Assembly (NCBI RefSeq): GCF_917627385.1
Contig: NZ_CAKJTL010000029.1
Coordinates: forward strand, 1-34,610
Source: Protofrankia sp. CiT1
GTDB taxonomy: Bacteria; Actinomycetota; Actinomycetes; Frankiales; Frankiaceae
Reading direction: 5' to 3'
DNA length: 34,610 nucleotides
The notes under the pieces are model-generated. The model did not search any database. It was not told where the DNA came from and was given only the letters and a program-made list of their open reading frames with translations. The position numbers and the translations under genes were made by a program. Numbering within the stretch: the first letter of the stretch is position 1; the number at the start of each line of letters is the position of its first letter. This document shows, one piece after another, positions 1,649 through 28,019 of this stretch.

Positions 1649-2046
1649 CACGTCCAGGCCGGGGCGCGGCCGGATCGGTTACGACATGGGCCGTATCCGT
1701 TCGGTGCGGGCCTTCCTCGGGAGCCGCCCGCCCGTGGCCTGCCGACGGAAAGATAGGTCCACGATTGTCCGAAATGATCCTTGTAGGGTACCCTCAGGCT
1801 CCTTTGTGAGCCTGAGGGTACGCAAAAATCCAGCACACCCGGGATCTCTGGCCAGACGAAAAATAATGCTTACACGATTTTTGGCATACTAGCCCGCTTG
1901 GTGGTTCCGGGCGAGTGAAAAACCATGATCGCACTCTCTTTGGCCGCTGGGACCGTATGTCCCGGGTTCATTCCGGTGCCGAGCGGTCTGAGCGACATCC
2001 GGCCGCCCGGCAGCACCGTGTTGGCCCGTGGTTGTGATTCGGCGGG
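1649..2046. other. Intergenic stretch downstream of the DUF397 gene
   Basis: No convincing gene. It holds the perfect hairpin at 1788-1821 and, on the plus strand, AT-richer sequence near 1858-1890. The DUF397 gene ends at 2047 on the minus strand, so the hairpin lies 226 bp beyond its stop. Confidence 0.5.
1788..1821. terminator. Perfect 14-bp hairpin, possible terminator
   Basis: GTACCCTCAGGCTC (1788-1801) pairs exactly with 1808-1821 across a 6-nt loop. There is no T-run after the stem for transcription on either strand; an A-rich run follows on the plus strand. Many actinobacterial terminators lack the T-run, so it could end minus-strand transcription from the XRE-DUF397 pair, but it could also be an operator or an insertion remnant. 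Confidence 0.45.
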
Positions 2047-5387: not shown

Positions 5388-6080
5388 GTGGCCATCGACG
5401 CAGCGGGTGCCAGCGCCGTCGCGCTGGGCCGAGGCCGGCTGGCCAAACGCGAGGCGATCATGAAAGCCGCGTTCGAGGTCTTCGCGCGGCAGGGCTACGC
5501 CGCCACCAGCCTCGACGACATCGCGTCGGCCACCCCGGTCTCCCGCCAGACCGTCTACAATCATTTCGGCGACAAGGAGAAGCTCTTCCTTGCCGTCATC
5601 GACGGGATGATCACGTCGAACCTCGACGCGCTACGCAACGCGACGAACATATTTCCCGCACGCGTAGAGACTGTCGATGACGCCTCGACCTACCTGCTTG
5701 ACCTCGCGCGACGGATCACAACGGTCTACGCCAGCCCGACCACCAGCGCGTTGCGCCTAGTTATCCAGACCGAGGCACCCCGTCACCCCCAGCTCCTGGC
5801 CCTGTGGCGTTCCCGCGTCACCACACCCGTATGGCCAGCCCTCATCGGCAGCCTTGCCCGCCTCGCTCACGCCGGCGCTCTAAACATCGACGACCCAGCC
5901 CGCGCCGCCGGTCAATACCTCGCCCTCATCATCGGGACCTCCTGGCAGATGACAGAACTCGGCACCTTCGCTTTCACCGCGCCCTCCGATCGCGACGCCC
6001 CGGAACTCGACACCGCCATTCGAGCGAACGTCGCCCTTTTCATCCGTGCCTATGCACCCATCGCCACTCAGGCCTTTTAG
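5388..6080 (+). CDS. TetR/AcrR-family transcriptional regulator
   Basis: 230 residues. Residues about 21-67 hold the TetR DNA-binding domain: IMKAAFEVFARQGYAATSL, then the recognition part TPVSRQTVYNHFGDKEKLF. The C-terminal two thirds is helical, as expected for ligand binding and dimerisation, and includes IQTEAPRHPQLLALW, typical of the TetR_C groups with an AefR-like sensor. GTG start at 5388 with AGGAGGG about 15 nt upstream, a rather long spacing. It is divergent from the Glf-like oxidoreductase, its probable target. The TAG stop overlaps the left end of element D. Confidence 0.9.
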   Translation: MAIDAAGASAVALGRGRLAKREAIMKAAFEVFARQGYAATSLDDIASATPVSRQTVYNHFGDKEKLFLAVIDGMITSNLDALRNATNIFPARVETVDDASTYLLDLARRITTVYASPTTSALRLVIQTEAPRHPQLLALWRSRVTTPVWPALIGSLARLAHAGALNIDDPARAAGQYLALIIGTSWQMTELGTFAFTAPSDRDAPELDTAIRANVALFIRAYAPIATQAF

Positions 6081-23949: not shown

Positions 23950-24014
23950 GCCGTTTGTCAGGGGAGAGAGCGGTGGCATCTGGCTGACTGGCGGTGAGCG
24001 GCCGGATGGTGAGC

Positions 24015-24181
24015 TTAGAGCGCCCGGCAACAGGGGTGTGGATCAGGGAGCGGGACTGGGGTGCGTGCATCGCGAGGCGGCGGAGGGAGCCACCCTGGCG
24101 TTGGGCGGCGACCGACGACAACGCGGTGAGGTGCGTGCCCCAGCCCCCGCGACGCCGCGTCCCTATTGCCGGTCGCTCTTA
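24015..24181 (+). repeat. Palindromic element C4
   Basis: About 167 bp. Left end TTAGAGCGCCCGGCAACAGG, right end CCTATTGCCGGTCGCTCTTA. Both flanks read TTA, the closest match to a 3-bp target duplication among the copies. It carries GGATCAGGGAGCG and the family GCATCGCGAGGCGGCGG core. It lies between the convergent exported-protein and lipoprotein genes. Confidence 0.88.
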
Positions 24182-24190
24182 GCCCCGCCT

Positions 24191-24224
24191 TTGGTGGCCA
24201 CGCCGGTCCCGGCGTGGCCACCAA
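24191..24224 (-). terminator. Perfect 15-bp hairpin downstream of the lipoprotein gene
   Basis: TTGGTGGCCACGCCG (24191-24205) pairs exactly with 24210-24224 across 4 nt, 27 bp beyond the minus-strand stop at 24251. No T-run. It is similar in size and position to the hairpin after the paralogous operon at 9215. Confidence 0.75.
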
Positions 24225-24250
24225 GCCGTGCCGCGAGTGCCGTGGCCGGG

Positions 24251-24835
24251 TCAGGCGGAGCAGGACCAGCTGATCGAGCCGGCCAGGGTACGGCCCGCCG
24301 AAGTCTGGCCGGTGAATGACAGCGAACCGCCCGAAGACGTGATCGTCGCAGTGGTCGCGATGGCCTCCACCGCGTACGGGCCGTCCGTGGATGAGCCGAC
24401 GGAAACGGTGACCACGGCCGGGTAGGAGCCGGCTCCGTGGTAGGCGGCGATCCGGACGGTCGCTGTAACGGTGTACCCATGAATGACGCCGCTGGCGGAT
24501 TCCACGTAGCGCCGGCCTGTGTCGCAGCTGACGGTTGTGTCCACGTGACCGGCGACTGTGATTGGCGATGTGATCGACACTGTCAGAGATCCCGGCCCGC
24601 CGACGCCGCGTCCGGCGGACGTACCACCCGTCGCCGGTGCGGTTGCCACGGGCACGGTTGTCACAGGCACGGTTGCCGTCACCGATGACGAGGTGCTGGA
24701 GGCCTGCGTGGTCGCCGCGGACACGGCCGTGCCGGCGGTGCGGGCACCGGGTTGGCATGCGGACAGCGGAAGAACTGCCATGCCGACGAGGAGCATGACG
24801 GCCATCCGGGATCGGCTGGCGTGATGACGGTTCAT
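24251..24835 (-). CDS. Exported lipoprotein, paralogue of the protein at 10523
   Basis: 194 residues. The lipobox PLSAC near residue 27 follows a hydrophobic MLLVGMAVLPLSA, so it should be lipidated and anchored outside. A Thr/Ser/Ala-rich linker (about 30-75) leads to a globular C-terminal part: SLTVSITSPITVAGHVDTTV, then SCDTGRRYV, IHGYTVTATV and the ending TLAGSISWSCSA. These match the exported protein at 10523-11005 strand by strand, including two cysteines. GAGGTG 8 nt before the ATG supports the start. It diverges from the response-regulator gene at 25007, which may regulate it (inference). Confidence 0.87.
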   Translation of the reverse strand: MNRHHASRSRMAVMLLVGMAVLPLSACQPGARTAGTAVSAATTQASSTSSSVTATVPVTTVPVATAPATGGTSAGRGVGGPGSLTVSITSPITVAGHVDTTVSCDTGRRYVESASGVIHGYTVTATVRIAAYHGAGSYPAVVTVSVGSSTDGPYAVEAIATTATITSSGGSLSFTGQTSAGRTLAGSISWSCSA

Positions 24836-25006
24836 CGTTTGACACCTCGTATCGGAGCGGGACAGCGGGTGCTGTTCTCAGCTCTGGAGCCTGCCCGGCG
24901 TTTATGAGAGCCGGATGTATGAACAGGCGGTTCGGCTCGCATGGAACTCATATGTTCGTCCGGTGTGATTGCGACCCGCGGGGCGCACGGAGGGCGTGGG
25001 AGGGAC

Positions 25007-25732
25007 ATGAGCGAGAACGGGAGCCGTGATTCGCGGTCGATGCGGGTCCTGGTCGTGGATGATGAGGCGAATATCGTCGATCTTGTCCGTATGTCCTTGC
25101 GCTTCCACGGCTTTGACGTGGTTACCGCAGCTTCCGGCCGGGAGGCGATGACCGCTGTCACCGAGATGGCACCGGATCTTGTGGTGCTTGACGTGGGGCT
25201 GCCCGACACCGACGGTTTCGAGGTCTGCCGTCGACTGCGTGACGCTGGAGCCGAGACCCCGGTGATTTTTTTGACCGCTCGTGATCGCCATGCCGACAAG
25301 GTCGCTGGTCTGACCTACGGCGGCGACGACTACGTGACCAAGCCCTTTTCCATCGATGAACTGGTAGCCCGGGTGCGCGCGGTGCTCCGGCGGGCACGGC
25401 GCGACCAGTCACCGCTGGCCGCGCAGGTCCTGGTCTTCGCCGATCTCGTCCTGAACGAGGACAGCCACGAGGTGGCCCGGGGCGGTCATCCGCTGGAGTT
25501 GTCGCCCACCGAGTTCAAACTGCTGCGATATTTGTTGGCGAACCCGCGCCGGGTATTGTCACGTGCCCAGATCCTCGACGCGGTCTGGAATTACGACTTC
25601 GACGGTGGCCACACCATCGTCGACCAGTATGTGAGCTACCTACGGCGTAAGCTTGCGCCGCACGGACCGCCGTTGATCCATACCCAGCGCGGCTTCGGCT
25701 ATGTGCTGCGAGAGCCTGGCGCGCAGCTTTGA
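25007..25732 (+). CDS. OmpR/PhoB-family response regulator, orphan
   Basis: 241 residues. The receiver domain has D18-D19, phospho-acceptor D62 in VLDVGLPD, T90 and K112 in VTKPF. The winged-helix output domain follows from about residue 140 (HPLELSPTEFKLLRYLLANP, then TIVDQYVSYLRRKL). ATG 25007 has GGGAGGGAC directly before it. The histidine kinase that normally follows is missing: the next thing downstream is a tandem hairpin array and a convergent aldo/keto reductase gene. The cognate kinase is elsewhere or has been lost. Confidence 0.94.
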   Translation: MSENGSRDSRSMRVLVVDDEANIVDLVRMSLRFHGFDVVTAASGREAMTAVTEMAPDLVVLDVGLPDTDGFEVCRRLRDAGAETPVIFLTARDRHADKVAGLTYGGDDYVTKPFSIDELVARVRAVLRRARRDQSPLAAQVLVFADLVLNEDSHEVARGGHPLELSPTEFKLLRYLLANPRRVLSRAQILDAVWNYDFDGGHTIVDQYVSYLRRKLAPHGPPLIHTQRGFGYVLREPGAQL

Positions 25733-25756
25733 CCGTATCGATACGTGACGATCGTC

Positions 25757-25931
25757 GTGTCTGGTCAAAGGCCGCGCGATGCTGGTTTTTCGCGCGGCCG
25801 GCGACTTTGGTCTGGGTGTCTGGTCAAAGGCCGCGCGATGCTGGTTTTTCGCGCGGCCGGCGACTTTGGTCTGGGTGTCTGGTCAAAGGCCGCGCGATGC
25901 TGGTTTTTCGCGCGGCCTTTGACCTCGGTGA
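25757..25931 (+). terminator. Three tandem hairpins, 59-bp repeats
   Basis: Copies start at 25757, 25816 and 25875, exactly 59 bp apart. Each contains GGCCGCGCG-N12-CGCGCGGCC, with a loop ending in TTTTT. The third has the longest stem, 16 bp: GGTCAAAGGCCGCGCG against CGCGCGGCCTTTGACC. The array lies between the convergent response-regulator and aldo/keto-reductase genes, where a bidirectional terminator is expected; triplication of a 59-bp segment is the likely origin. Confidence 0.8.
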
Positions 25932-25932
25932 G

Positions 25933-26940
25933 TTACCCGGTCGGTCGGGATGGCCCGGCGCCGGCTCCGAGACGATCGATGCCCAGCTCGATGTCATCGA
26001 TGTCCTCCGCGGTCAGCGCGAGGGTGGCGGCCGTGATCCATCCATTGACCTGGCTTGGCCTGCGCGCGCCGACGATCGCCGCGGTCACACCGTCGAACGC
26101 GAGGGTCCAGGCGACGGCTACCGAGGCGACGGTCGTGTTGTGCCTTTTTGCCACCGTTCGCAGGATGTCAGCGAGAGCGAGGTTGCTGTGCAGTGCCTCG
26201 CCGGTGAAGTCCGGTGAGGCGCGCCGCCAGTCGTCGGCCGGGAGGTCGGCCGATCGCTGCGCTGACCATGCCCCGCTGAGCAGCCCCGACTGCATCGGGC
26301 TGTAGACGATTACCCCGATGTTGTGCTTGGCGCAGTACGGCAGGATGTCCGTGGCCACGGTCCGCTTGATCGCTGAGAACGGCGGCTGGAGAACATCAAC
26401 CCCGCCCGCGGATGCGGCACGCTCGAGCAGGTCGACGTCGAAGTTGGACACGCCCACCGACCGGATCTTTCCTTCCGCGCGCAGTTCGTGCAGTGTCGCG
26501 ACGGAATCCTCGATCGGTGTGCCGTCCTTCGGCGGCCAGTGCAGTTGGTAAAGATCGATTCTTTCGATCTTCAATCGTCGCAGGGACGCGTTGACCTCAC
26601 GGCGGATCGACTCGGGCGAGCCCACTCTGGCGGGCAACAGGTCATGATCTGATTTCCAGGTCATGCCGCACTTTGTGAACACGTATGGCCGGTCGGCTTC
26701 GCCGATGTCCGCGAGCGCCCGTGCCACGACCTCCTCGGAGTGCCCGCGGCCGTATACAGCCGCTGTGTCGATCCAGTTCACGCCGTGCTCGACGGCATGC
26801 CGAATGGCGGCCACCGATTCATCGTCGTCCTGGGCGCCCCATCCGAATGCGTGCTCCGCACCGCCGATCGCCCAGGCGCCGAAGCCAACCCGGGTGATGT
26901 TCAAACCGGTCGGGCCCAAGAGCATTGTAGGAAGGGTCAT
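25933..26940 (-). CDS. Aldo/keto reductase
   Basis: 335 residues from ATG 26940; the longer frame to 27051 has no protein-like leader. The catalytic tetrad of the family is visible: D58 (WIDTAAVYGRGHSEE), Y63, K90 (FTKCGM) and H134 (YQLHWPPKDG). It is an NADPH-dependent cytoplasmic oxidoreductase that reduces aldehydes or ketones, of the AKR11/YajO-like type with the later IGVIVYSPMQSGLLSG segment. Substrate unknown. Its stop is next to the triple hairpin, which probably ends its transcription. Confidence 0.92.
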   Translation of the reverse strand: MTLPTMLLGPTGLNITRVGFGAWAIGGAEHAFGWGAQDDDESVAAIRHAVEHGVNWIDTAAVYGRGHSEEVVARALADIGEADRPYVFTKCGMTWKSDHDLLPARVGSPESIRREVNASLRRLKIERIDLYQLHWPPKDGTPIEDSVATLHELRAEGKIRSVGVSNFDVDLLERAASAGGVDVLQPPFSAIKRTVATDILPYCAKHNIGVIVYSPMQSGLLSGAWSAQRSADLPADDWRRASPDFTGEALHSNLALADILRTVAKRHNTTVASVAVAWTLAFDGVTAAIVGARRPSQVNGWITAATLALTAEDIDDIELGIDRLGAGAGPSRPTG

Positions 26941-27781
26941 GGTCAGTGTGTACCCCCATGCGAGACTCCGGATCTGGGTGGAACGAGGACTCCTGGGATC
27001 CAGGCGGCTGGCTCCGACCGGACCGTACCGGCTTCTCCAGCATGAAAGCATTCACGCGACCGGAAGTCCCGCGGCCAGGAATGTCAGTAATGTCATGTTT
27101 GTCTTGTTGACATTCCTGAAGATGAGCGGCCTCCGCCGCGGCCGGCCAGGGCCGGTGCGCGGCGGCGAGCGGGAATGCCGTCTGGTCGCGGGCGGTCTGG
27201 GCGTGTCGTCCGCGGGCGTTGGACAGCCCGGGTCATTGGATGGTCGCACGGTGATCCGCTGGTGAAATATGCACCATGATTTTTACTATGAGTAGTCATA
27301 TTGGTGGTACGGGTTATCTGTCGGCTGGCAGGTGGGATGCCCGCGCCATGAGTACGCGGCCGGGCCGCATAGGAACACCCAGGCCGGTCCCGGGGGTGTC
27401 AGCCGCCTCGGGGGCTGGTAGCCACGATCGGCTCCCTGGAGGCGTTGACCATGGGCAGTTCTGGTGGCACGCCCTGACGGTGGCCGGCCGCGGCGCTCTG
27501 CCGGCGCGGACGATGGAGGTGCCCGCGACCGGTAGTCGCGGTGGGTTACCTCGGGCGATGCGCCGCCATCCGCTACGTGAGGTATGTAGTGGACTTCCTT
27601 CCCCGGAGACCTCCCGTGATGGCCTGTAGCCGTGTAGCGTCTTCCATGGCCAAGTTCGGCGGTTGGCGTCTACAAGGGACGCGGACGGCGAACACTGTCG
27701 TGGGAGCGCCAAAATCTCACTTCAGACGGTCCGGGGCCCGCGCGGTGTGGGTCCTGACTGCACCAGCAGGGAGAACGGCAC
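26941..27781. other. 841-bp gap upstream of the cold-shock gene
   Basis: No convincing gene; a plus-strand frame at 27276-27629 is Gly/Arg-rich and lacks a ribosome site. An inverted repeat, AGGAATGTCA (27077-27086) and TGACATTCCT (27108-27117), may be an operator of the aldo/keto reductase gene. The part before 27782 is likely a long 5' leader of the cold-shock mRNA, as is common for this family. Confidence 0.5.
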
Positions 27782-27985
27782 GTGGCTCAGGGCACGGTTA
27801 AGTGGTTCAACTCGGAGAAGGGCTTCGGCTTCATCTCCGTGGACGGCGGCGGTTCGGATGTCTTCGTCCACTACAGCGCGATTGACATGGACGGGTACAA
27901 GAGCCTGGAAGAAGGGCAGCGGGTCGAGTTCCAAGTGACCCAAGGACAGAAGGGTCCACAGGCTGACGCCGTTCGGGTCGTCTGA
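27782..27985 (+). CDS. Cold-shock protein, CspA family
   Basis: 67 residues covering a whole cold-shock domain. Starts GTG 27782 with GGGAG upstream. It reads [20 protein letters not shown], the RNP1 motif KGFGFI, then [10 protein letters not shown], the RNP2 motif VFVHY, and ends ADAVRVV. A single-stranded RNA and DNA binding chaperone. It is monocistronic and followed by a weak stem-loop at 28020-28054. Confidence 0.96.
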
Positions 27986-28019
27986 GCCACGAGGGACGTA
28001 ACTCCACAGTCGTAGGGCG

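Follow-up and report, generated by a model that had tools for sequence, protein, structure and literature searches.

A triplicated hairpin array in Protofrankia sp. CiT1 as a probable expansion within a lineage-specific, REP-like family of intergenic hairpins

Introduction

The stretch of Protofrankia sp. CiT1 DNA analysed here (contig NZ_CAKJTL010000029.1, 34,610 nucleotides; hereafter the window) contains a response regulator gene and an aldo/keto reductase gene that converge on a short spacer, and this spacer holds three consecutive copies of a hairpin-forming unit. A first-pass annotation made from the letters of the sequence read the copies as an unusual triple transcription terminator that may isolate the two genes from one another. 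The locus raises the question of whether such an array is a device made for this gene pair or whether it belongs to something larger that also occurs here. Our analysis argues strongly for the second answer: the array very probably arose when one member of a REP-like, lineage-specific hairpin family, dispersed through intergenic DNA, was multiplied head to tail.

Structure of the array

The three near-exact copies described in the first-pass annotation are present as 59-bp units arranged head to tail at 25757-25933 (Table 1), and Tandem Repeats Finder returned 25757-25917 with a period of 59, 2.7 copies and 100% matches. The neighbouring genes are convergent, as had been described, with the regulator ending at 25732 on the plus strand and the reductase at 25933 on the minus strand. 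Together with the final base of the hairpin unit, the first linker reads TTTGGTCTG. In the predicted fold of units 1 and 2, four outer pairs are separated by a 3x3 internal loop from an inner stem of 10 bp. Unit 3 has the same letters as these units up to 25917 and then continues with TTTGACC, which is exactly complementary to the 5' end of unit 3 itself. Its arms (25881-25897 and 25908-25924) measure 17 nt each and are 100% complementary, which corrects the 16-bp stem reported initially, and its predicted folding energy is -35.0 kcal/mol on the plus strand. The array folds far beyond shuffled sequence (z of -6.5 on the plus strand and -7.6 on the minus strand). On the reductase strand each of the three hairpins is predicted to fold locally, while the predicted minimum-energy fold of the regulator strand pairs unit 1 with unit 3.

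Perfect 17-bp arms are found in two members of the CiT1 genome, the one at 25881-25924 of the window and another at G000:C31:3023-3066 (locus L227), and most members keep a mismatched internal loop. Such arms are the expected product of template-switch correction of a quasi-palindrome. Elsewhere in the window there is a fourth, isolated member of the family (Table 1), and positions 5441-5495 may hold a further, weak one (16.7 bits, E 0.069).

Table 1. Positions of the repeat units, hairpins, linkers and flanking genes in the window, with one further family member
Feature	Position	Strand	Details
Fourth, isolated family member	1902..1945	-	covariance model (CM R1) 47.4 bits
Response regulator	24941..25732	+	Response_reg (PF00072) and Trans_reg_C (PF00486); start uncertain
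Unit copy 1	25757-25815		59-bp spacing
Unit copy 2	25816-25874		100%
Unit copy 3	25875-25933		86%
Hairpin of unit 1	25763..25806	+	44-nt element; CM R1 63.4 bits; fold -26.3 kcal/mol
Linker between units 1 and 2	25807..25821	+	15 nt, letters repeated at 25866-25880; period 59
Hairpin of unit 2	25822..25865	+	same letters as unit 1; CM R1 63.4 bits; fold -26.3 kcal/mol
Linker between units 2 and 3	25866..25880	+	
Hairpin of unit 3	25881..25924	+	perfect 17-bp arms; CM R1 57.3 bits on +, 36.0 on -
Aldo/keto reductase	25933..27051	-	Aldo_ket_red (PF00248), convergent; start uncertain

A dispersed hairpin family

With the array as query, relatives were found elsewhere in the CiT1 genome. When at most two mismatches were allowed, the loop pattern occurred 20 times, counting the copies in the array itself, and a control pattern 3 times. 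The family has the layout GGCCAAAGGC-stem-CGCGATCATG-GTTTTTCGCG-stem'-CCGGAGGCC and forms a 44-nt element. We aligned 38 units, picked by hand out of 51: 37 come from the genus, represented by five genomes, and the remaining one comes from genome G013. The 13 that were dropped were weak, degenerate or duplicate, and this selection favours structure in both the alignment and the model. In these hand-selected units, 92.3% of the cells in the two-part stem are paired versus 86.1% in shuffles, 30 cells are changed on both sides versus 9.1, and the covariation score is 0.228 versus 0.128 for shuffled and at most 0.072 for slid versions, while the number of further pair types (20 versus 18.1 in shuffles) is not clearly above expectation. 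The stem shows compensatory changes, supported by covariation. Four positions (A6, A17, T21 and G22) are invariant in all 38 units, the last three of them in or beside the loop, and a run of T marks the sense strand: TTTT occurs in 43/97 members of CiT1 and 60/108 of the congener G001, and AAAA in 4 and 2. Rfam gave no match at the gathering score in the window.

At E<=0.01, the covariance model identified 97 members in the CiT1 genome (96 in another run) and at least 149, 65, 52 and 102 in the congeners G001, G002, G003 and G004, respectively. Across the order, 21 of 35 genomes match at this threshold, with between 1 and at least 149 matches each, and 14 have none. Of 296 genomes sampled from the class, 15 have a match at E<=0.001; 13 of them belong to the same bacterial family as CiT1, and the two outside it have single near-threshold matches. 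Among 80 control loci from named genomes, most of them actinobacterial, three matches reached E<=0.1, the best at 22.5 bits. In the genomes sampled, the hairpin family is nearly confined to one bacterial family. We found no title or abstract describing it in the open-licence literature, but its absence from print is weakly supported because the supplement of PMC4447401, according to the available text of that paper, gives palindrome and tandem-repeat counts for Frankia genomes. The word Frankia does not occur in the available text of three papers (PMC2267715, PMC12306157 and PMC3733652), nor does Actinobacteria occur in the available main text of the last of these.

Tandem arrays and copy-number turnover

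A triple arrangement is less unusual than the first-pass annotation had supposed. The 97 members of the CiT1 genome fall into 78 clusters, namely one of six, three of three (including the array at 25757-25933), eight of two and 66 single copies, and head-to-tail arrays make up 12 of these 78 loci. The 95 clusters of G001, drawn from 108 of its 149 matches, include 13 pairs, and three-unit arrays are also present among the matches listed for G002, G003, G012 and G025. Neighbours less than 200 nt apart are without exception on the same strand (32/32, from the 97 CiT1 members and 149 G001 matches), with spacings of 54-66 nt. We suggest that slippage or unequal recombination across this unit makes the arrays grow, and that the perfect stem of unit 3 may have arisen by template switching within the hairpin. 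The copy number of the array itself could be collapsed, as the CiT1 assembly consists of 191 contigs.

Copy number among relatives, a comparison that had been suggested at the outset, does differ at orthologous sites. One such site is the clpP-clpX spacer, which holds six members in CiT1, one in the opposite orientation in G001, and none by the model in G002, G003 and G004, with a degenerate hairpin retained in G002 and G003 as judged by eye. The six-unit array (L199 2501-2831; G000:C73:18972-19302) has spacings of 60, 57, 55, 60 and 57, apparently a three-unit block occurring twice. We aligned nine further sites between CiT1 and G001; five were readable, and at the others (L212:2110, L212:1653 and two in L247) the sequences were too diverged or the member was in the other orientation. 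The readable sites have CiT1/G001 copy numbers of 1/0 (one site), 0/2 (two sites), 2/1 (one site) and, by eye, 1/2 (one site). As for the two genes flanking the array, the regulator and reductase stretches examined in G001 and G004 contain no member at E<=1, with incomplete coverage because the reductase stretches of both contain runs of N, and the best score in the G002 reductase stretch is 13.6 bits (E 0.47). Within this coverage, the array does not appear to be conserved with the gene pair.

Genomic context and the possibility of mobility

We counted the context of all 97 CiT1 members and of 108 of the 149 G001 matches (E<=0.01), relying on crude gene calls from a codon-usage script. Cluster centres rarely lie inside called genes (3/78 in CiT1 and 8/95 in G001). 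Within 40 nt of called genes, 44 clusters lie in sense at 3' ends, 22 in antisense at 3' ends and 28 at 5' ends, where one cluster may count on both sides (p = 0.009 for sense versus antisense, p = 1.1e-4 for 3' versus 5' ends). Spacers were classified for 100 of the 173 clusters, the others being in gaps longer than 700 nt (55), inside called genes (11) or at edges (7). In these spacers of up to 700 nt, 71 clusters are between co-directional genes (47 in sense, 24 in antisense), 17 between convergent genes and 12 between divergent genes; divergent spacers make up 26-30% of the member-free spacer bases and convergent ones 11-13%.

CTAG is a rare sequence, with a rate of about 0.3 per kb. It is found in the 8 nt that precede the element in 9/97 CiT1 and 18/108 G001 members, compared with 0 and 1 in a control window of 8 nt, and in 0/97 and 5/108 across the whole stretch from -40 to -9. 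When a member begins 0-5 nt after a stop codon on the same strand, that codon is TAG in 14 of 15 cases (11 of 12 in G001, the remaining one being TAA, and all three in CiT1), while TAG ends 76/252 and 57/232 called genes in the two genomes. In G001, the majority linker CAGGTCCCCGGG follows the hairpin 3' even for single copies, with CT.GAG before it.

These features would fit a non-autonomous, REP- or MITE-like mobile hairpin that inserts beside CTAG, often supplies the TAG stop and is moved by some enzyme. The enrichment of CTAG, the preference for TAG, the conserved 3' linker of single G001 copies and the presence/absence sites between CiT1 and G001 all point in this direction. However, CTAG flanks a minority of the members, and no convincing target duplication was found, the one candidate being a 5-bp CTGTT repeat noted by eye at one presence/absence site. 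The sole transposase family searched, Y1_Tnp (PF01797), is absent from CiT1, G003 and the member-rich genomes G007, G013, G022, G025 and G026, with one match each in G001, G002 and G004. We therefore consider mobility of this kind possible but somewhat unlikely. A still more specific scheme, which we regard as speculative and unlikely, involves a mobile hairpin specific to the bacterial family. It would have spread without a REP-type transposase in the genomes where it is most abundant, inserting at CTAG next to the 3' ends of genes, providing them with a TAG stop and a preformed hairpin, and afterwards multiplying in head-to-tail order alone.

Comparison with known repeat families

REP sequences are described in the available text of PMC3733652 as short intergenic palindromes in many copies, occurring singly, in pairs or in clusters, some of them reiterated in tandem with flanking DNA. 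The hairpin family resembles them as a high-copy intergenic palindrome (97 copies at E<=0.01) that occurs singly or clustered, but it differs in being a 44-nt stem-loop with a conserved loop and in its enriched flank, which is CTAG instead of the GTAG or CGTC that serves as the REP tag. Neither tag is enriched here: GTAG lies within the 8 nt preceding the element in 0/97 CiT1 members (control 3) and 4/108 of G001 (control 1), and CGTC in 2/97 (control 7) and 3/108 (control 5), with 1 and 0 occurrences of GTAG and 0 and 2 of CGTC on the 3' side. We also rejected a RAYT-driven REP, as the distribution of Y1_Tnp across the order (17 of 35 genomes, including several without a hairpin match) runs against it despite the single matches in three congeners. 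BIME clusters have inverted neighbours, whereas close neighbours in the hairpin family are arranged head to tail only. We classify the family as REP-like and not as a REP.

Other families offer partial parallels. Mycobacterial MIRUs are minisatellite-like interspersed repeats, arranged in tandem between genes with units of 40-100 bp and a copy number that varies, whereas the unit here is a covarying hairpin. MITEs are similarly short, dispersed, structured and non-coding, but no parent transposase (PF01797 being the family searched) and no clear target duplication were found for the hairpins studied here. Finally, the "I-shaped" terminators without a U tract and the clusters of GC-rich hairpins discussed in the available text of PMC8355165 and PMC8269248 are also stable GC-rich hairpins near stop codons, mostly lacking a U tract; the hairpin family differs from them in its shared sequence and conserved loop, and in occurring in divergent spacers as well.

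The array as a transcript end

The part of the first-pass annotation that holds is the physical setting: the hairpins are strong and tandem, and a transcript from either of the convergent genes would meet them at the 3' end of its gene. Positioned directly behind a stop codon, so stable a hairpin would be expected to slow the polymerase and to shield the 3' end from exonucleases. The hairpins are GC-rich and stable, as expected of intrinsic terminators (-26.3, -26.3 and -35.0 kcal/mol on the plus strand), and on the regulator strand the stems of units 1 and 2 are followed by UUU and then GGUCUG, with 4 T in 8 nt. There is no U tract in the array sequence after unit 3, or after any unit on the reductase strand. 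A scan of 24000-28000 for canonical intrinsic terminators gave three sites, two of them in units 1 and 2 with the tail ACTTTGGTCT, and we did not accept this candidate because 2.1 sites (sd 1.6) were expected and the result is not clearly above chance. Across the family, the 8 nt that follow the element on the sense side contain at least 3 T in 14/97 CiT1 and 17/108 G001 members, compared with 6 and 7 in control windows, so that the pooled frequency of U-rich tails is about twice that of the controls (31/205 versus 13/205); the antisense values of 15 and 11 are similar to their controls (14 and 11).

The bias of the family towards the sense strand and 3' ends fits a role at 3' ends, although insertion under selection to avoid promoters would also yield part of the 3'-end bias. 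Structured 3' ends without a U tract are common in Streptomyces clavuligerus (PMC8269248), and PMC8355165 proposes that hairpin clusters lacking poly-U serve as termination units, in both cases according to the available text. The bias of the family, together with the TAG stops just before members, makes a role of the hairpins as transcript 3' ends plausible. More specifically, and tentatively, once transcribed the hairpins may serve as 3' ends in which a U tract is short or missing, and may halt transcription with other factors, block 3' exonucleases, or both.

Whether the triplet was selected to insulate the regulator from the reductase is a separate matter, and we think it improbable. The strong hairpins at a convergent junction, the short U-rich tails of units 1 and 2 and the published precedents just cited could all be read in favour of such a dedicated multiple terminator. 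However, the same hairpin occurs 97 times at 78 loci of the genome, with arrays at 12 of them, array size is labile at clpP-clpX, and 12 of 100 clusters lie in divergent spacers, which a terminator of this kind should avoid. The gene pair itself is also not conserved as such. In G001, a sensor kinase gene (HAMP, HisKA and HATPase_c domains) comes after the regulator ortholog (79-81% identical), and a sulfatase gene and a P450 gene lie between this kinase and the reductase. In G004, a kinase 65% identical to that of G001 adjoins the regulator, and the reductase lies about 34 kb away. The orthologs are not neighbours in either congener, and G002 and G003 gave no clear arrangement. The isolating role claimed for the array as a special terminator of this pair is consequently not supported. 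Occurrence in divergent spacers and the scarcity of U tracts both speak against a purpose-built intrinsic terminator, and promoter avoidance could account for part of the positional bias; we therefore read the array as an expansion of a repeat family in which any effect on termination is secondary. Readthrough from the two genes may well be limited by the array, but as a by-product rather than through a device designed for the pair.

The same comparison bears on the history of the locus. The array occupies the place between regulator and reductase where G001 and G004 carry the kinase after the regulator, and a search of the window found no match to the kinase, sulfatase or P450 of the congener. 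Most simply, gene order suggests that the kinase was lost from the regulator locus in the CiT1 lineage and that the array sits in the scar. The regulator at 24941-25732, lacking an adjacent kinase, is possibly orphaned. In G004, a short tandem TTGACCAG repeat directly follows the reductase stop codon (L139, L280).

Another explanation is that the hairpin is a genome-wide site bound by a protein or RNA, as part of a regulon or as a chromosome-organising site, with the conserved loop as its recognition motif. The four invariant positions and the T run on the sense strand would suit such a role, but the turnover at orthologous sites is unlike a conserved regulon, and we find this reading very doubtful. 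An assembly artefact, conceivable in a draft of this kind, is scarcely credible, as arrays with diverged units occur elsewhere in the same genome and arrays occur in other genomes, and unit 3 differs from units 1 and 2.

Implications

As a member of this hairpin family, one odd intergenic array becomes part of a genome-wide system of about 100 copies that can be compared between species. The finding also carries a caution, since a tandem terminator called from sequence alone may be a member of a repeat family. The range from 0 to 6 units at a single orthologous spacer, that between clpP and clpX, places this turnover beside basic genes. If the hairpin were indeed mobile in the way just outlined, it would carry gene ends with it as a portable cassette and change the points at which transcripts stop. 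The family would make it possible to ask whether the 3' ends of transcripts in GC-rich bacteria are set by dispersed hairpins, and to study how repeats spread where the REP-associated transposase is not found.
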